Part shown: positions 9,376 through 58,984 of the stretch, piece by piece | Position numbering within the stretch: position 1 is the stretch's first letter | Layout: the number at the start of each line of letters is the position of its first letter | Source: Planctomycetota bacterium | GTDB taxonomy: Bacteria; Planctomycetota; Planctomycetia; Pirellulales; Pirellulaceae | Direction of reading: 5' to 3' | DNA length: 60,074 nucleotides | NCBI GenBank assembly: GCA_027622275.1 | Contig: JAQBZB010000014.1 | Span: 1 to 60,074, forward strand | Position numbers and translations under genes: made by a program | Notes under the pieces: model-generated | Seen by the model: only the letters and a program-made list of their open reading frames with translations | Databases searched by the model: none | What the model was told of the DNA's origin: nothing

Positions 9376-9822
9376 TGGCATGGCTCCCGGATATCAACGT
9401 CTGGATTCACCTCCTCAAACAGCCTGGCAGCAAAATCGAACAATCGCTGCTCAGTCATCCATCCGACCAGGTTTTTCTTTGTTCGATTGGCATGGCGCAA
9501 CTGTGGCACGACAGGGCTTTTGTTTTGTTTAATCTGTGACGAGCGCAGATGAGTAGCATGGCCTCGCAGGCCGTGTGTTTTCCGGCATTCCCAAGCTGAC
9601 ACGGCCTACGAGGCCTACGAGGCCATGCTACTTCTTGCGCAACTTCAAACAAACAAAAGCCCTGTGTGGCACGGTGCCTACAAATATGGAAACACGGAGC
9701 GACGGTTGAAAGTCTTGGAAGAACTGTTTGCGGGATTCGTGTCCTTGCCGTTCGACGACAGCGCCGCGTGGCATTACGGCGACATTCGTCACCGGCTCGT
9801 GACGGCAACTATCATAAGCTAG
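9375..9822 (+). pseudogene. vapC-type PIN-domain toxin, disrupted by a mobile element and truncated
   Basis: The frame from 9375 reads MAWLPDINVWIHLLKQPGSK, a PIN-domain start with the first catalytic aspartate, and continues to AQLWH before entering an insertion that gives a stop at 9537-9539. Removing the insertion plus one copy of the duplicated GTGGCACG rejoins AQLWH to GAYKYGNTERRL in frame. The rest reads through the FAGFVSLPFDDSAA region to HRLVTATIIS and stops at 9822. VapC proteins normally continue for about 35-40 more residues with the C-terminal acidic PIN residues, so the 3' end is also lost. Two lesions make it non-functional as a ribonuclease. The upstream antitoxin gene is still open. 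Confidence 0.88.
9511..9665. mobile_element. 155-bp MITE-like element with terminal inverted repeats and 8-bp target duplication
   Basis: The ends are inverted repeats: the left starts ACAGGGCTTTTGTTTTGTTT (9511-9530) and the right ends AAACAAACAAAAGCCCTGT (9647-9665), with a one-base length difference. The element is flanked by direct copies of GTGGCACG at 9503-9510 and 9666-9673, consistent with an 8-bp target duplication. The interior carries an imperfect palindrome (GTAGCATGGCCTCGCAGGCC near 9553, mirrored by a run ending GGCCATGCTAC near 9631). It encodes no protein, so any transposase must act in trans. Its excision exactly restores the PIN reading frame, which proves it is an insertion. 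Confidence 0.88.
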
Positions 9823-9851: not shown

Positions 9852-10488
9852 ATGAGTAACCAGTTGATTGGAAGACGTGCTGTGATATGTCTACTTGCGA
9901 TGATTGTCGTTCTCGTGCCATCGTTTCTGGTAGTCAGCCTACAGAGCAACAACATCTCAACAGCAAATGAAGCTGCGCCGATATCAGAGTTTGGGTACAA
10001 GGAGTACGTCAAGGAAGGGCCGTTCGTCATCAACATCAGTTATCGCTCCGCTCGATGTTGTCTTGCGAGCATTCAAGTACGTCAGGCTTTCTAGCCTGAC
10101 AAGGGGAGTGTCAGCCTAGAAAAAACGTACATTGCGGCTGTGCCGCACTAAGTGGATCAGGAGTTTCCCGCGAAGCGCAAGTACATGTTCATTGACCAAG
10201 ACGGACGCGGTGGCTTAAACAATGATCGCGGCGAAGTAATTTTGAACATGGATGCACAGTTCTCCGTTGATGCCTCCTTCGATCCAAACGTACCGGGGAG
10301 CGTCTCGGAATACTCCGTGACTATAAGAGGTGTTGGCTTTACGGATCTTGATGTAAACGGATCCTTCGACTATCGGGTAACGACAGAGACTGCGGCACGG
10401 GTCGATGTGTGGTATGAGAATGCTTGGCGTGAGACCGTTGTTGGTGGCGACCTGTACGAAAGGAAACTAGCCAAGGTGCGCTGTACAA
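9852..10488 (+). pseudogene. Broken gene for an unknown anchored or exported protein
   Basis: The first segment (9852 to about 10076) has a possible ribosome site (GGGAG) and encodes a positively charged N-terminus, one transmembrane or signal segment (VICLLAMIVVLVPSFLVVSL) and a short exported stretch ending INISYRS. A palindrome at 10077-10130 then brings a stop at 10092-10094, and another stop follows at 10149-10151. The same reading frame reopens at about 10152 and encodes a beta-rich stretch (YMFIDQDGRGGLNNDRGEV through VDVWYENAW) up to the helicase 3' end. The two halves share frame, so I read this as one gene split by the repeat. I do not recognise the family; two separate short genes cannot be excluded. 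Confidence 0.5.
10077..10130. repeat. Palindromic element of the CAGCCT-TTCC-AGGCTG type, inside a broken gene
   Basis: The left arm starts GTACGTCAGGCTTTCTAG (10077-10101) and the right arm reads TGTCAGCC...AACGTAC (10109-10130), imperfect reverse complements with a 7-base spacer. The left arm also forms its own hairpin (GTCAGGCT / AGCCTGAC). It is related to the element at 12607-12657, which has the same outer GTACGTCAG end. Confidence 0.8.
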
Positions 10489-13400
10489 CTAACTTCTCGG
10501 CTTTGAGGCTGGCTTCTTCTTGCGGTCGCGTTTCATATTGGGCGTCTTCGACGTTACGGCGGCGGTGGGCAAGGCAAAGGAACTGGCTTGCTGCTGCTGG
10601 AACTTCTGCTTGGCCGGCTTTGTGATGAAGCGTGTTAGTTCGACTTGTTCGTAGTCGTCGAAGTAGCTGCCGCCGTATTGTGAAGCACGCTGGCGGCGCG
10701 GGTGGCAGACGTAGAGCCAATCGGCGGCGCGAGTCATGGCGACGTAGAACATGCGGCGTTCTTCTTCCAACTGTTCCGGATCGAACATGCTGCGTTCGTG
10801 CGGAATCTTGCCGTCGCTGGCGTGTAAGATGTAGACGACTTTCCACTCCAAGCCTTTTGCGGAATGCATCGTGCTGAGTATCAGGCGGTCGCGGTCGGCG
10901 TCTTCCGCGAGAGCTTCTTCGCCATCGGGCGGGTCGAGTGCCAACTCGGCCAACATGGTCGTGCGGTCCTCGAACCGGCTCACCACCTCTTTCAATTGTT
11001 CGAGATCGCTCAGCCGTTGAGGCAGGTTATCGTAGCGGCCTTCCATTAGCGGCTCGTAAAAAGTCAGCACGCTTTGAATCTGCATAGCGAGATTGTCGTC
11101 CGCTTGTGCCGACAGATATTGAAGCAGGCTAACCAACTGCGTCCATTCGTCGACGGCTTTGGCGGGCGGTTTGGTCGCCGACCAAGCTGCGAAGTCTCCG
11201 CCTGCATCGATCACAATCTGCTGAAGCTGCATCGCCTTTTTTGGTCCAACTCCGGCCAACAAAGTCAACACGCGCTGGCCAGCCACACGGTCGCGCGGGT
11301 TTTCCGCCAGGCGGAGGAACGACATCAGATCCTTGACGTGAGCCGATTCAATAAATTTCAAACCGCCGTATTTGACATACGCGATGTCTTGCCGTGCCAA
11401 TTCGGCTTCCAGCAAGATGCTGAGTTGAGCCGACCGAAACAGCACGGCTTGTTGCGAAAGCGGAATTCCCCGCTGGCGGTGATCGTGGATGCGGGCGACG
11501 ATGAAGTCCACTTGCTCGTGCTCGTCAAAGCAGGTGATCAGTTGCGGCGGCGAGCCTTCCTCGCGATCCGACCACAGATCTTTCGTGTACCGTTCGCTGG
11601 CTTGCGAGATGACGCTGTTCGAGGCCGCCAGAATCGGCGCGACGCTGCGGTAGTTTTGTTCCAACGCGATGACTCGCGCTCCGGGAAACTGTTTGGGAAA
11701 GTCGAGGATGTTGCGGACGTTCGCGGCACGGAACGAATAAATCGACTGAGCGTCGTCGCCGACAATGGTCAGGCCACGTCCATCGGGGCAGAGCCGCTTG
11801 AGCAACCGCGATTGCAGACAGTTCGTGTCTTGATACTCATCGACCAGGACACAATCGAACCGATCGCGGATCGTTGGCCCGGTCTGTTCGTGTTCGAGCA
11901 GCTCGCACCATGTCACTAGCAAATCGTCGAAGTCGAACACGTTCAATTCGCGTTTCCTGTTCGCGTAGCCTTCGAACAGTTTCGCGAACGCCGCAGCGTA
12001 TTTCGTTTGCGAGGAGAATTGTTGTTGGAGCGTCGCATCGAGCGACAACTGGGCGTTGACCATGTAACTGTGAATCGACATGCACGTTCCCTTCCTGGGG
12101 AACTTTTTGTCGTCCTTCGCCAGTTCAAGATCTTGGCAGACGGACTGCATCAAGGATTCGGCGTCGCCACGGTCGTGGATCGTAAACCGCTCGTCGATGC
12201 CGATATGTTTTCCGTAGATTCGCAGCAACCGCGTGCCGACGCCGTGAAACGTGCCGCCCCAGACGTTGCGGCGGACGTCTTGCTGAGCCAGCACGTCGCC
12301 CACTCGCTGTAGCATCTCGGTGGCCGAGCGGCGAGTGAACGTGAGCAGTAAGATGCGGTACGCCGGTATGCCTTCAGAGATCAAGTGCGCCACGCGATGC
12401 ACCAGCGTCGTCGTCTTTCCGGTTCCAGCGCCCGCGATGATTAAGAGAGGTTCGCTGCCGTGTGTTGCGGCGATTCGCTGTTGTTCGTTGAGATTGGCGA
12501 GACCGGCGGGCGCAGTTGCAGGTACGATGCTGCCCGACTTCTTTGTTAACGCATTCTTGGGACGTGTTGTCTTATTGCGAGGCATCTTCTTCTCCGGTGC
12601 ATCGACGTACGACAGCCTTTCCAGGCTGTCTTGGTCAGCCTGGAAAGGCTGACGTACTTCATCAGGGACATCGACGAATTGGCGCAGACTTTCATCACCG
12701 GCAATACCAAAGCCGGTGCCGCTTCCAATCGTTTCGAAGCAACCGTCAACACGAATCACTTCCGCCGTCGCACCGTCTTCTAGTTCAAACGACCTCGTTT
12801 CGCCACAACGAGAGGCGGCGGCGACCATCTCACGCATATAGGACAAGCCGCGCGTCGCTTCCGGTCGATCCCAAATCTGAGACGCGGCGTCCAATAACGC
12901 CCGCGACAAGAATACCACACACTTTGATCGGGCGCGCGTCACCGCGACATTCAATCGATTCAGCCCGTAGATGAACTCGGCCTCCTGCACGGCAAACTCG
13001 GGATCGGAGACGCCGTAGCTGACAATCACGGCGTCGGCTTCCTGGCCCTGCATTTTGTCGACCGTATCGACGAAGGGCGGGTGCTGCCACATGCGCTGAC
13101 GCCGCAGTTCGCGCTCGATCAAGCGGATCTGGGCGCGATGCGGACTGACTAGAAACACGCCGCGGCGAAAAAATTCGTCGTCGTTGGCGTAGAGTCTCCC
13201 CTCCGCATCTCGCAGCGCGCCGCGCAGCCCGATGACAAGCTTGGAGACCAGTTGTGCTTCCAATTGATTTTCGCGAGCAGCCCACACGCCATCGAGAATC
13301 ACGATCGTGAGCGGACAGGCCGGATCGAGGCAAGCCTCCGCGAACGGATCGAAACAACGCTCGCGTGACAGACCCAACCGCCGCGCGGCGATCGTCTCGT

Positions 13401-16400
13401 TGAACGGCAGATAGTCATGGCCGTAAAGCAACCCGGCCGCGAAGCTCGTCAACACATCGTTCATGCGGAAGTTTTCGGTGAGTTGAACTTTGGAGTGCGG
13501 TGACTTGTCACCGCTTTCTTTTTCTCTCGTGTTTGGCTTTCCATCTGTGTCGCCAAAATGGGAAAGCGACGACAAGTCGTCGCACTCCAAAAAGGCTTCG
13601 AACACGGATCGGTGAAGCACTGGCTGGCCTGCGGGCGGATCGGGGTAGACGCCTTTGATGATCGGCGGAAGCTGCAAGTGATCACCAGCTAATACCAAGC
13701 GGCCCGCGCTGCCGGCGAGGCTGATCGGGACCGACGCTTCAGGCACGCGGACTTGCGATGCCTCGTCGATCACGACGAAGTCGAACTCGGGTAGCTTCTC
13801 GTACGCTTTCAAACACGCGTAGGTCGTCGCTCCGACAACCGCACAGGTTTGCCGCTTCAACCACTTGGCAAAGTGTTTCTCCTCGATCACATTCGCCGAC
13901 AGTTCACCGTCACCGTGCCACGCCTTGACCTTGGCGACTTGCAGCTCGCCCGCCAGACCGAGCGAACTTTGCAAGGCCGTGACTTTCCGCAACAGGTTCT
14001 CGATGGCCGCGTGTGTGTAAGCGGAAACCAGAACGCGGAACGGCTTCTTGGCCGCGAGATGGACTGCGGCCAAGCCGAGAATGGCTGCCGCCAAGAAGTG
14101 CGTCTTGCCCGTTCCCGGTGGTCCCCACACGGGCACGACTCGTTGATTGCAAATGGCGAAGTACGCCCGCGTTTGGCTTCCCGTCAGTTGCAAATGTTCG
14201 AGCTGCTGCACCGCCGCTGCGTACAAATCGTCAGAAAGCGGTCGCGGCTGACAAGCGGCCTGCGGGTCGCGAAGCAAACGCAGGAACAATTCGTCTTCAC
14301 CTAGCCGTTCGCGGACGGCACCGTATCCCTGCAAGAACTCGACCACGCTGTCCGTGCTGTAATCGGTGAATCGCGGGTACAAGAGGAATTGCTGGCCGGG
14401 TTGCGGCGGCCCGTCGATGAAAGGCTTGGCGTACTCGACGGTAAGTTTTGCTGGCGTCCCGAGCTTGTCTTTCTGGATTTCGCAAACGCCGACGACGGCC
14501 AGATTCGACTGCGGCTTGCCCGTCCAAAGTTGCTTGCGGCACGCGTAGTCTCGGTATTCCAATTGGGCGCGCCGCCCGGCTTCGTTGTCGGTCACTAGCA
14601 GCCATTCGGGAAAACCGCCCGCATCGATCGGCATCGCGGTCCCGGATGTGACTTCGAACTCCGTCTCGCTCGTGGCTCGCAACTGCATCACCTTGGCAAG
14701 CAATAACTGAGCGGCGAGTGGTTCGCAGCGAGCGTGGCGTTTATCCAAGCAGTCGAGGAGACTTTCGTAGCGTGCGAAGAACGCTAGTCGTGACAGCAAC
14801 GGATCGGCGTAGGGATGCTGCGTGGGCAGCGCGAACTTCGCGGCCCAGGCATAGATCGCATCCGTACCTCGATGCCGGATCGATTGCAACAACTCGCGGG
14901 CGGCTCGCAGTCGAGCCGCCGTTTGGCTTTTGATCTGTTCCATCAGTTCGCCTTTGCCGCGATACCACGCCGCGTGGATCGGTTCGGCCCTCATTCCGTG
15001 GCCCAGCGGAAAATGAAAGTAATCGTTTCGATTGAGCTGGAAGCGGCTGCCAAGCGACGCGAGCGATTCGGGCAACGTGTAACTCACTTCGACGGGTAAC
15101 GCCATGACGTGCCCCAAGGCGTCGAGTAACACGACGACGGGAAACGGCACTTCGCGGGCGGGATGGCTGTCCGCAACTAGCAACTCTGGCGATTGAAAGT
15201 GAAACAGCAACGTCATCGCCTGCTCGGCCAATTCGGGCTCGTCAACGTCTTGCAACGATTCCAACAGCCACTCGACCAGCAGCCCGCGTTCCTCTTCGGT
15301 CAGCACATACGCTTGCAGGCTGAGTTGATCGCGCCACTCGCGATCTTGATTAAATCGATCGACGCCGACAATGATCTCGTGCAACACGCGGACCCATTGG
15401 CGGCGGATGTCCGACGTATCGTCGGGTGTCTTGGCCAACAGCACATACGGCTGCGACTTGTTGCCAGGGTAAAACCGTTGCACTGTTTCTGCAGACAACA
15501 CTTCGTCACGGAGATCCCTGCGCAGCGTGAGGTGAAGGCCAGCCAGATAGATTGCCTGCGACAGCGGCTCTTTCTGCAGGGTGAGGAACAAGCTAATGTT
15601 CTCGCCCTTGGACAACGACGGCGACGCCGCACCGTGTGTTTGAGGCTCGTTCGTTTCCAATGCGGTCACTTGCCGCGCGAGGCGTGGACCGCGTCCGGCG
15701 AGCGACGCACAACGCGACAGCACATTGTCCGCGTCGCTGGTCTGCAGGAACTCGCCCAATTCCGTGACGGTCGTCACGTGTGCTTCGTGGCGAAGAAACT
15801 GCTTGCCGTAGGATGTGAGGTGCGAAATCCGCGAGACGTCGTTGTCACGCTGCATTTGATCGCGGCAATGATCGAAGTAGTCGCACCATTCGCAACGGTG
15901 ATAGACATGCCAGTTCGCTGCGTCGGGCGGGGCACGAAGTAGAGGCGTCAATTCGTGTCGCAGAAACTTTTCCAGGTGCGGGCGCAGTTCCGCAAGATCG
16001 AATTCCGTCGGCGACAACTGCGACCCGAGCCACACTTCGCCTTGCTGCATGTCGACCCGCGGATCTTCAAGCGATTCCGCCCACAGGATCGCTTCCAGTT
16101 CCAAGGCGTATAGCAGTACCTGCACGCGATGCGTCAACTGCATCGACTCGCCACGCTTCACATCCATGACCCGCAGCACCCGGCGACCCTCGCCGTCGTC
16201 GCGCACGGCGATCAGATCAGGATGGTTGTCGCTGAGCACGACGACTTGGGGATCGATCCCGTAGCGCTCGTAAAACGCGAGCGGCAGGCGCAGCGTCGGT
16301 TGGTAAATGAACGTCCCGACCGGAGCCGTGCGCAACAACTCCAACGTCGCTTTCCAATCGAACCGCCGAGTGTGTAGATCGCCCTCGCCCGGAGCGATGA

Positions 16401-16698
16401 ACACTCGTTTGTCGAGATGCTGCTCGACGACAGTCTGCTCCCACACAAAGCCGCTTTCGAGGACCGCTTTGATCAACGGGCTATGGTCGAATTCGGGCGA
16501 GGGCAACTGTTCGTCGCGCCGCGTTTGCGGGCTGGCAGCATGGAAGCGAAGAAACCGCTGGCAATCGAGAAAGAAGTAGCGGGCGATCGCCGACGGGCTA
16601 GTCCGAAACGGCGGCGCGGTCGCCGGAAGCTGCAACGAGACACTCATTGTCATACCCGTTTGTGCATCCATCCCGACCCGGACTGCTGGGCGTCCCAC
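10489..16698 (-). CDS. Giant double helicase: RecB-like nuclease + UPF1-type SF1 helicase fused to a UvrD/PcrA-type helicase
   Basis: A single 2069-residue ORF. About residues 25-285 form a TM0106/Cas4-like RecB nuclease with the DLIAV...MDVKRG catalytic segment and a cysteine cluster (CEWCDYFDHC). Residues ~850-1290 hold a UPF1/Dna2-type SF1 helicase: Walker A GPPGTGKT near 856, DEAS near 976, AGDHLQLPP, TENFRMND, and the LNVAVTRARS motif VI. From residue 1372 a complete UvrD/PcrA-like helicase of 698 residues begins at an internal methionine, with GAGTGKTTT near 1423, DEYQDTN near 1616, GDDAQSIYSFRAA and YVAMTRA. Two palindromic repeats lie in frame, at residues ~1036-1070 and ~1348-1364. 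The second sits at the junction, so two once-separate genes may have been joined. The N-terminal start is uncertain (several methionines in the first 20 residues). Likely role: DNA repair or end processing. Confidence 0.9.
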   Translation of the reverse strand: MGRPAVRVGMDAQTGMTMSVSLQLPATAPPFRTSPSAIARYFFLDCQRFLRFHAASPQTRRDEQLPSPEFDHSPLIKAVLESGFVWEQTVVEQHLDKRVFIAPGEGDLHTRRFDWKATLELLRTAPVGTFIYQPTLRLPLAFYERYGIDPQVVVLSDNHPDLIAVRDDGEGRRVLRVMDVKRGESMQLTHRVQVLLYALELEAILWAESLEDPRVDMQQGEVWLGSQLSPTEFDLAELRPHLEKFLRHELTPLLRAPPDAANWHVYHRCEWCDYFDHCRDQMQRDNDVSRISHLTSYGKQFLRHEAHVTTVTELGEFLQTSDADNVLSRCASLAGRGPRLARQVTALETNEPQTHGAASPSLSKGENISLFLTLQKEPLSQAIYLAGLHLTLRRDLRDEVLSAETVQRFYPGNKSQPYVLLAKTPDDTSDIRRQWVRVLHEIIVGVDRFNQDREWRDQLSLQAYVLTEEERGLLVEWLLESLQDVDEPELAEQAMTLLFHFQSPELLVADSHPAREVPFPVVVLLDALGHVMALPVEVSYTLPESLASLGSRFQLNRNDYFHFPLGHGMRAEPIHAAWYRGKGELMEQIKSQTAARLRAARELLQSIRHRGTDAIYAWAAKFALPTQHPYADPLLSRLAFFARYESLLDCLDKRHARCEPLAAQLLLAKVMQLRATSETEFEVTSGTAMPIDAGGFPEWLLVTDNEAGRRAQLEYRDYACRKQLWTGKPQSNLAVVGVCEIQKDKLGTPAKLTVEYAKPFIDGPPQPGQQFLLYPRFTDYSTDSVVEFLQGYGAVRERLGEDELFLRLLRDPQAACQPRPLSDDLYAAAVQQLEHLQLTGSQTRAYFAICNQRVVPVWGPPGTGKTHFLAAAILGLAAVHLAAKKPFRVLVSAYTHAAIENLLRKVTALQSSLGLAGELQVAKVKAWHGDGELSANVIEEKHFAKWLKRQTCAVVGATTYACLKAYEKLPEFDFVVIDEASQVRVPEASVPISLAGSAGRLVLAGDHLQLPPIIKGVYPDPPAGQPVLHRSVFEAFLECDDLSSLSHFGDTDGKPNTREKESGDKSPHSKVQLTENFRMNDVLTSFAAGLLYGHDYLPFNETIAARRLGLSRERCFDPFAEACLDPACPLTIVILDGVWAARENQLEAQLVSKLVIGLRGALRDAEGRLYANDDEFFRRGVFLVSPHRAQIRLIERELRRQRMWQHPPFVDTVDKMQGQEADAVIVSYGVSDPEFAVQEAEFIYGLNRLNVAVTRARSKCVVFLSRALLDAASQIWDRPEATRGLSYMREMVAAASRCGETRSFELEDGATAEVIRVDGCFETIGSGTGFGIAGDESLRQFVDVPDEVRQPFQADQDSLERLSYVDAPEKKMPRNKTTRPKNALTKKSGSIVPATAPAGLANLNEQQRIAATHGSEPLLIIAGAGTGKTTTLVHRVAHLISEGIPAYRILLLTFTRRSATEMLQRVGDVLAQQDVRRNVWGGTFHGVGTRLLRIYGKHIGIDERFTIHDRGDAESLMQSVCQDLELAKDDKKFPRKGTCMSIHSYMVNAQLSLDATLQQQFSSQTKYAAAFAKLFEGYANRKRELNVFDFDDLLVTWCELLEHEQTGPTIRDRFDCVLVDEYQDTNCLQSRLLKRLCPDGRGLTIVGDDAQSIYSFRAANVRNILDFPKQFPGARVIALEQNYRSVAPILAASNSVISQASERYTKDLWSDREEGSPPQLITCFDEHEQVDFIVARIHDHRQRGIPLSQQAVLFRSAQLSILLEAELARQDIAYVKYGGLKFIESAHVKDLMSFLRLAENPRDRVAGQRVLTLLAGVGPKKAMQLQQIVIDAGGDFAAWSATKPPAKAVDEWTQLVSLLQYLSAQADDNLAMQIQSVLTFYEPLMEGRYDNLPQRLSDLEQLKEVVSRFEDRTTMLAELALDPPDGEEALAEDADRDRLILSTMHSAKGLEWKVVYILHASDGKIPHERSMFDPEQLEEERRMFYVAMTRAADWLYVCHPRRQRASQYGGSYFDDYEQVELTRFITKPAKQKFQQQQASSFALPTAAVTSKTPNMKRDRKKKPASKPRS
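12607..12657. repeat. Palindromic element at the junction of the two helicases
   Basis: Two 22-bp arms (12607-12628 and 12636-12657) are reverse complements with one mismatch, separated by 7 bases. Each arm also contains its own hairpin (CAGCCT-TTCC-AGGCTG). Read on the minus strand it encodes about 17 residues of linker (VRQPFQADQDSLERLSY region) in frame, 22 bases upstream of the internal ATG (12583-12585) of the UvrD-like half. Confidence 0.9.
13489..13591. repeat. Palindromic element in frame within the UPF1-type helicase domain
   Basis: Two 30-bp arms (13489-13518 and 13562-13591) are reverse complements except at four positions. The differences fall in an inner hairpin: the left arm has GCGGTGAC/GTCACCGC, the right GCGACGAC/GTCGTCGC, so each arm keeps its own stem by compensatory change. 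The 43-base middle is not repeated. On the minus strand it adds about 35 polar residues between helicase motifs III (AGDHLQLPP) and IV (TENFRMN) without breaking the frame. Confidence 0.9.
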
Positions 16699-21623: not shown

Positions 21624-21693
21624 TACAAGCACGACGCGCGAGCGAGTGTGTACTCGGCGGATGAAACTCACTCGCTGGCGCTTCGTGCTTGTA
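21624..21693. repeat. Palindromic element, GCGAGCGAGTG type
   Basis: 25-bp arms at 21624-21648 and 21669-21693 are reverse complements with two mismatches and a 20-base spacer. It is the same family as 33807-33875, sharing TACAAGC-CGACGCG-AGCGAGTG. It lies upstream of the methyltransferase gene and just after the stop region of aguA. Confidence 0.88.
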
Positions 21694-33806: not shown

Positions 33807-33875
33807 TACAAGCTCGACGCGCCAGCGAGTGAGTTCGACCGCCGAAAACCCACTCGCTGGCGCGTCGAGCTTGTA
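33807..33875. repeat. Perfect 25-bp palindromic element
   Basis: Arms at 33807-33831 and 33851-33875 are exact reverse complements (TACAAGCTCGACGCGCCAGC and mirror), with a 19-base spacer. It is related to 21624-21693, which differs by matched changes in both arms. Confidence 0.92.
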
Positions 33876-58162: not shown

Positions 58163-58984
58163 ATGTTTCACCCGCAAGGCCCGACGTTTGGCGAGTTAGC
58201 GCGACAGGCACTGTCGTCGACCGAGCGAGGTTACGATTTGCTCGCTCCCAAGTTCGATTACACTCCGTTTCGGACGCCGGATTCGTTGCTGGAACTGGTC
58301 GCGCCGCTGATCGGGAACGAGAAGCCGATCGATTCCGCACTGGATCTGTGCTGTGGAACAGGCGCTGGAATGAAGATGCTGCGACCGCTGTGCCGTGAAC
58401 GTGTCGTCGGTATTGATTTCAGCCACGGGATGCTCGACATTGCCCGCCAATCGATCGAGCACGGGGCGGGGAAAGCGGATTGCGAGTTCGTTTATGGCAA
58501 CGTGCTCGAGTTGCCGTTTACCAGCAAGTTCGATGTGGCCGTCTGCTTCGGAGCTTTGGGGCATATCTTGCGGCGGGATGAGGCGACGTTTGTCGCCCAG
58601 ATCGCCAAGGCATTGCGGCCCGGCGGGCGGTTCGTCTTTATCACCGCGCAACAGCCATCGCGGTTGTCGCCGAACTATTGGTTGGCGCGGGGATTCAACG
58701 CTGCGATGCACGTTCGAAACGCTTTTATCAAACCACCTTTCATCATGTTCTATTTGACATTCCTGCTCCCGCAAGCGACGAAGCTGCTCGAAGATCACGG
58801 TTTTCACGTCACGATTCACGACAACGTCTTTCCGCACCCGTTCCAACGAGCGTGCGTTGTAATTGCGACGTTACGTGGCCCTTCGCTCCGCGAAGGGAAG
58901 CATGTTCGCGGAGCGAACAGCCACGTAGAACCGCCAAATGGCGACATTCAAAAATCATATGGGCCGGCTATCATGGTAAGGTGA
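58163..58984 (+). CDS. Class I SAM-dependent methyltransferase, C-terminus altered by a palindrome
   Basis: A 273-residue methyltransferase. It shows motif I LDLCCGTGAGMKM, VVGIDFSHGMLDIAR, the NVLELPF acidic strand, AVCFGALGHIL and LRPGGRFVFIT. Substrate unknown, perhaps a lipid or small molecule. The family-like part ends near FQRACVVIATLR. The last ~36 residues (from GPSLREGKHV) are encoded by and beyond a palindrome at 58872-58927, so the original stop was probably lost and the frame runs on to 58984. It is 15 bases downstream of the SGNH-TPR gene. Confidence 0.87.
   Translation: MFHPQGPTFGELARQALSSTERGYDLLAPKFDYTPFRTPDSLLELVAPLIGNEKPIDSALDLCCGTGAGMKMLRPLCRERVVGIDFSHGMLDIARQSIEHGAGKADCEFVYGNVLELPFTSKFDVAVCFGALGHILRRDEATFVAQIAKALRPGGRFVFITAQQPSRLSPNYWLARGFNAAMHVRNAFIKPPFIMFYLTFLLPQATKLLEDHGFHVTIHDNVFPHPFQRACVVIATLRGPSLREGKHVRGANSHVEPPNGDIQKSYGPAIMVR
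58872..58927. repeat. Palindromic element at the 3' end of a methyltransferase gene
   Basis: 23-bp arms 58872-58894 and 58905-58927 are reverse complements with two mismatches (TACGTGGC...GCTCCGCGAA and mirror), separated by 10 bases. Each arm also makes its own hairpin (TTCGC-...-GCGAA). It adds residues in frame to the methyltransferase. Confidence 0.88.

Follow-up and report, generated by a model that had tools for sequence, protein, structure and literature searches.

How do two palindromes come to lie in frame within a single gene that encodes two helicases? We address this question for a 60,074-nt stretch of contig JAQBZB010000014.1 (assembly GCA_027622275.1, an uncultured planctomycete), hereafter the window, in which a 2069-codon open reading frame (ORF; 10489-16698, minus strand) runs uninterrupted through both. 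A first-pass annotation had described the two palindromes as in-frame elements, and both are indeed real and in frame: their arms were found, no shuffled sequence folds as well and the frame is open. The residues that they encode agree with that description, at ~1036-1070 for site A (13489-13591, minus strand), which carries the element E1, and at ~1347-1365 for site B (12604-12660, minus strand), which carries E2 and lies between the two helicase modules. Site A is an insertion, and we consider it highly probable (roughly 0.87) that it is the in-frame insertion of a non-autonomous mobile palindrome of the repetitive extragenic palindrome (REP) type, arranged like a REPIN and tolerated in a flexible loop. 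Site B is likely the same kind of event in the interdomain linker.

Site A is a palindromic doublet of two inverted REP-like units around a 43-nt spacer. Its 30-nt arms are 87% complementary, with arm 1 (13562-13591) read as LECDDLSSLS and arm 2 (13489-13518) as ESGDKSPHSK. Folded as single-stranded DNA, it scores z = -6.23, and none of 200 dinucleotide shuffles does as well. Each unit is a hairpin on its own (GGAGT-GCGGYGAC-TT-GTCRCCGC-TTTC), and the stem covaries across 93 distinct arm contexts: both sides change at pair 3 (GC/TA, 80/9), pair 4 (GC/AT, 88/4) and pair 5 (CG/TA, 41/29), the last being Watson-Crick in just 70 of the 93. Arms were searched for with up to two mismatches, using the reversed pattern as a control. 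The window genome (G000, 9.78 Mb) carries 94 arms in 61 clusters (control 0), its congener G001 carries 212 (control 1) and G026 carries one (control 0). Altogether, E1 is present in 10 of 60 genomes, its own included, with one control match each in G010 and G044. The 25 doublets collected measure 89-146 nt, a length that counts 6 nt of flank per side. Repeated short palindromic units, a covarying hairpin in each unit and inverted doublets place E1 with REPs and REPINs, although its unpaired head is GGAGT (GTAC in E2) rather than a GTAG-type/CGTC tag. A search of the window against Rfam gave no match at gathering scores.

The evidence for insertion comes from relatives. A single scan of GTDB genomes yielded 78 homologues of the helicase, all but two of which (L217 and L220) cover the site A loop. 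The interval from RLVLAGDH to QLT spans 49-63 residues in 74 of these 76; it reaches 118 in G001 (L143), 94 in G026 (L201) and, by the same count, 75 in the window (70 from GDH), and loops longer than 63 occur only in these three genomes. The window genome and G001 share the same E1 insert in separate assemblies, which speaks against an assembly artefact. G001 (completeness 93, contamination 8) and G026 (completeness 78, contamination 6) are draft metagenome-assembled genomes. The G001 loop holds E1 plus a further 129 nt, also in frame, in which an E1 arm is duplicated and a GTTCCCAGGC hairpin occurs. Its GTTCCC unit has 101 matches in G000, 12 in G001 and 31 in G026 (control 0); these figures count many units twice, once per strand, since the pattern is nearly palindromic. 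In G026, a GTAG-headed REP pair, unrelated to E1, takes the place of E1 in the loop; its unit has 182 matches in G026, 26 in G000 and none in G001 (control 0). In a tree of 18 rows (long branches, L154 and L156), these sequences belong to a clade of eight (99/100). There, G026 is sister to the insert-free L148 (95/96), and G000 with G001 (100/100) stands beside the insert-free L144-L147, the six together at 99/97. Since insert-free lineages separate G026 from G000 and G001, E1 and the GTAG REP arrived in this loop in separate events. The short loop of L148 (RSGLPSG) resembles the peptide of the G026 REP, with no palindrome above shuffles there.

Two further genes of the window genome carry E1 in frame. 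In imuA, the element lengthens the gene by a net 36 codons (G000) or 40 codons (G001) relative to the congener G002, whose gene is an empty site with a protein that runs through uninterrupted; the NCBIfam ImuA match scores 118.2 bits, under its 150-bit cut-off. In a sulfotransferase-DUF6065 fusion, E1 occupies the linker. The orthologous fusion in G002 lacks it, which rules out E1 as the cause of that fusion. With element-free relatives for site A and for both of these genes, the proposal that coding sequence tolerates such palindromes in frame holds.

The host protein of sites A and B combines a RecB-like nuclease region, a Dna2/Upf1-type superfamily 1B (SF1B) helicase and a PcrA/UvrD-type helicase, as judged from its translation, Pfam, NCBIfam and Foldseek; all parts are on the minus strand. 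The nuclease region (residues 157-388; 15535-16230) rests on a weak TIGR03491 match (E 1.4e-9, 37.4 bits against a cut-off of 97.45). The SF1B core, delimited with Pfam and AlphaFold (residues ~837-1263; 12910-14190), is split by E1 between GDHLQLPP and QLTENFRMND, and the PcrA/UvrD-type helicase, delimited with Pfam and NCBIfam, spans residues 1403-1997 (10708-12492). The best Pfam stretches are AAA_11 (950-1015), AAA_12 (1066-1263), UvrD (1403-1672) and UvrD_C (1677-1997), and conserved domains are thus encoded on either side of both palindromes. Among the 25 NCBIfam matches listed, all fall under curated cut-offs. A Foldseek search with the modelled SF1B part returned Dna2 structures first (5ean, 5eax and 5eaw), then Upf1, Sen1 and IGHMBP2. 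PADLOC matched 66 families; the 25 listed resemble generic helicase domains, so we do not adopt a defence-gene label. The first helicase was matched at E 1e-60 in three of 396 sampled genomes of the order, the window's own among them, and a scan of viral contigs with the helicase found no relative. Fusion of a Dna2-like nuclease-helicase to a PcrA/UvrD-type helicase is rare: it can be read within one ORF in the window, L143, L144, L145, L148 and L201, while L146 and L147 end before the UvrD part and G011 continues on another contig.

Site B lies in the linker of this fusion. Its 25-nt arms (12604-12628 and 12636-12660) are 92% complementary and form two inverted GTAC-headed hairpin units, with a fold (z = -10.64) that again none of 200 dinucleotide shuffles equals. 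E2 is common to G000, where it is near-perfect, and G001, where it has decayed; G026 carries a different palindrome there, whose unit has 20 matches in G026, two in G001 and none in G000 (control 0). The first-pass annotation had suggested that such elements might seed coding sequence. This is not supported here: the fusion and its linker are present in L144, L145, L148 and G011 with inverted-repeat scores of 9, 8, 8 and 9, against shuffle maxima of 10, 10, 12 and 11, so the fusion is independent of the element. These fused relatives without a palindrome rule out E1 or E2 as its creator. The fusion also occurs on both sides of the clade's split and therefore predates the palindromes. Related palindromes had been reported elsewhere in the window as well; this is true of E2, which has one degenerate partner just past the 3' end of the ORF (~10077-10130, strand unassigned, identified by pattern match and folding) with GTAC ends and an altered stem, and not of E1, which has no further copy in the 60,074 nt.

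How might E1 have arrived? In our reading, it landed in the loop between what we take to be helicase motifs III and IV, before the window genome and G001 diverged. The frame would have been kept because the length of E1 fitted and its composition leaves a mean of 2.6 of six frames open, and the insert would have been tolerated because the loop is flexible. An AlphaFold model of the helicase segment (38 sequences, mean predicted local distance difference test [pLDDT] 85.8) drops below 50 in two places, segment residues 342-368 (1041-1067 of the ORF) and the final three residues. Unrelated palindromes were gained separately in the same loop by G026 and, additionally, by G001. The encoded residues would be neutral passengers. 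The units may be moved as single-stranded hairpin DNA by a Y1 (RAYT/TnpA-like) transposase. G000 has 21 Y1 matches, several of them flanked by distinct hairpins of their own (L070-L075, L081 and L083), and two of the 21, both fragments, have E1 no more than 1.5 kb away. Among 30 Y1 loci from G001, G018, G028 and G052, E1 is found at three (L352, L358 and L372). One of these, L352, is the sole Y1 match of the single-contig genome G052 and has E1-like units with shared flanks on both of its sides. As raw counts, these associations make a Y1 enzyme a plausible mover of E1 and the L352 gene a candidate REPtron for the family.

Several observations weigh against this reading. At site A, G000 has gained a net 17 residues relative to its closest insert-free relatives (58), though E1 encodes ~35 and nearly the whole loop, which means that E1 replaced part of the old loop rather than simply adding to it. 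The inverted-repeat score of the G026 site A palindrome does not exceed that of the best shuffle (10 v 10), so its identification rests on the exact unit with 182 matches. Visual comparison with the empty imuA site of G002 revealed no target-site duplication, and no intact Y1 gene flanked by E1 was found among the 21 Y1 matches of G000. At site B, E2 is nearly single-copy: the genome has five matches at up to three mismatches, three of them with three mismatches, and of the five, two are site B itself and one is at 10077. Fused relatives offer no clean alignable empty site there either, their linkers being of low complexity and poorly alignable, so insertion at site B is likely and not proven; the orthologue comparison that the first-pass annotation had proposed, in which the residues are absent and the flanks intact, came out as it had expected at site A, and site B is the weaker of the two. 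Lastly, between G000 and G001 the synonymous divergence (dS) of E1 is 0.10, compared to 0.82 and 0.76 in the flanking helicase codons, which simple neutrality does not predict.

This last observation is one argument for an alternative in which the insert is functional: selection would keep the palindrome for its hairpin, in DNA or RNA, or for the peptide that it encodes. The helicase might, for example, autoregulate at the mRNA level or encounter the structure at its own substrate-binding site. The arms of site A differ between G000 and G001 at only three positions, compared to nine in the spacer; the two changes in arm 1 fall on opposite sides of a single stem pair; and two of the three E1-bearing genes are of repair type. 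Between G000 and G001, the ratio of nonsynonymous to synonymous divergence (dN/dS) comes to 0.098 and 0.064 for the helicase stretches that flank E1 and to 0.106 for the UvrD part, which shows that purifying selection on the protein continued while it carried the insert; in the linker the ratio is 0.55. Against a function for the insert, dN/dS reaches 1.2 in E1 and 3.6 in E2 (the latter on one synonymous change), E2 has decayed in G001, and insert-free relatives do without the element. Nor is low dS a general rule, since the imuA element has a dS of 0.30 (dN 0.19). The numbers are small, and the low value in E1 could reflect selection for pairing, gene conversion or templated correction; the last two could preserve likeness between the arms with no selection at all. 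A functional insert is improbable. Equally doubtful, we think, is the broader idea that the motif III-IV loop is a recurrent site of landing and turnover, with palindromes in repair genes kept as hairpins that regulate, or are acted on by, the host DNA-processing enzyme.

We find it very unlikely that the palindromes formed in place, by templated (quasi-palindrome) mutation instead of transposition. The near absence of E2 copies and the form of E2, near-perfect in G000 and imperfect in G001, would fit such an origin, as would the duplicated E1 arm in the G001 gain. The E1, G026 and G001 units belong to families with many matches elsewhere, however, and the congener has an empty imuA site, both of which favor insertion of a mobile palindrome.

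The first-pass annotation had drawn a parallel to Rickettsia, and we asked how often the palindromes lie in genes. To count in-gene copies, we combined frames that span a cluster and its set flanks, a window-trained codon score, and Pfam/NCBIfam. By frame alone, and with a few clusters near contig or locus ends, 25 of the 61 E1 clusters in G000 have a spanning frame. Pfam analysis of all 25 places three (helicase, imuA and sulfotransferase-DUF6065) between or beside conserved coding parts shared by relatives: the helicase and the sulfotransferase fusion have domains before and after E1, while imuA has the ImuA domain before E1 and a tail common to G001 and G002 after it. In L099 (BatD-like) and L128 (DUF4062/NACHT), E1 lies in an open frame upstream of the domain, probably 5' of the true start, and may be untranslated; the frames of the remaining clusters among the 25 contain no Pfam domains. 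Because the codon score alone had missed imuA, three in-gene clusters is a lower bound. A sample of 24 clusters (21 from G001, three from G018) passed frames in imuA, the helicase and L304, the last by frame alone. For the other two families, regions were chosen non-randomly from match listings, and the frame filter was stricter (summed codon score >0.05). What passed was a single GTTCCC cluster (L283, without a Pfam match), two of 25 GTAG clusters from the fetched G026 regions (L270 with domains, L266 without) and the known helicase, which leaves no GTTCCC cluster of 24 in genes in G000 and, helicase aside, one GTAG cluster of 25 in G026, an in-frame REP in the glycogen-synthase-like ORF of L270.

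Least probable of all are palindromes of the Rickettsia type that are adapted to in-frame reading and commonly spread in genes: arm 1 is read in the same frame in all three in-gene E1 doublets (LECDDLSSLS, LECGDLSPLS and LDCCDSSQLS) and both in-gene G026 GTAG REPs read SRSRLPSGT, but few clusters of any family lie in genes and E1 shows no enrichment for open frames, its mean of 2.6 comparing to 2.40 in shuffles (95% point 2.76). In-gene palindromes here are a case of rare tolerance, not an invasion on the Rickettsia scale.

R. baltica is a planctomycete. The first-pass annotation knew of no described planctomycete counterpart, a statement that the literature does not support: Di Nocera et al. 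2013 (PMC3733652) list R. baltica among carriers of GTAG REPs and report REPs inside genes of many other bacteria, including the verrucomicrobium O. terrae. As with E1, those intragenic GTAG/CGTC REPs are short palindromes, often inverted dimers, and many occupy genes for DNA synthesis or repair (UvrD/REP helicase, UvrA and RecBCD), comparable to the repair-type hosts here. In two Xanthomonas, recB carries different REPs at roughly one position, which recalls the repeatedly struck helicase loop here, and the authors propose tolerance in flexible linkers or loops (PMC3733652). The heads of E1 (GGAGT) and E2 (GTAC) set them apart from the GTAG/CGTC type, whereas the G026 site A unit does have GTAG. 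REPINs with their RAYTs, as portrayed in PMC3116915, resemble E1 in having two inverted REP units and a spacer and many copies; they are mostly extragenic, as E1 seems to be. Unlike in that system, no intact dedicated RAYT was found beside E1 in G000, and G052 has a single Y1-E1 association. Class 3 TnpA-Y1 enzymes with atypical hairpins occur mainly in Planctomycetes, Acidobacteria and Proteobacteria, according to PMC6006769; their genes are flanked by hairpins, as are Y1 genes here, and their tag is CnGA. Rickettsia palindromic elements share with E1 their in-frame position in genes, yet nearly half of them are in genes, compared to 3 of 61 E1 clusters, and they belong to a different phylum (excerpts of PMC10969869 and PMC3733652).

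In-frame REPs in genes are thus a known phenomenon, of which the present case is a planctomycete example. Relative to the cited parts of PMC3733652, it adds the GGAGT-headed E1, uncultured planctomycete hosts, empty sites in congeners and one helicase loop struck independently by unrelated families. Our literature search on planctomycete and in-frame palindromes, which did not extend to the supplementary list of PMC3733652, found no report of the present cases; PMC3733652 was the only paper that bore on the question directly. With empty and filled sites in the same genus and in several genes, they form a clean comparative case of mobile palindromes becoming protein sequence. They also matter for judging if DNA-repair genes truly carry the excess of in-frame REPs that has been reported, and they caution that planctomycete gene calls can contain repeat-encoded residues.

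The window contains other strong palindromes (at 9552, 21624, 33807, 55883 and 58872), which look by eye like different sequences. Those at 21624-21693 and 33807-33875 are alike (TACAAGC...GCTTGTA) and seemingly unrelated to E1 and E2. At 9511-9665, 22-nt inverted ends (86% complementary) enclose a GTAG-headed palindrome in an insert resembling a miniature inverted-repeat transposable element. It appears to break a short ORF that by eye is PIN/VapC-like, a gene-breaking counterpart to the in-frame cases. The palindrome at 58872-58927 falls within the C-terminal tail of an ORF (58163-58984) that by eye is methyltransferase-like, and may be another in-frame case.

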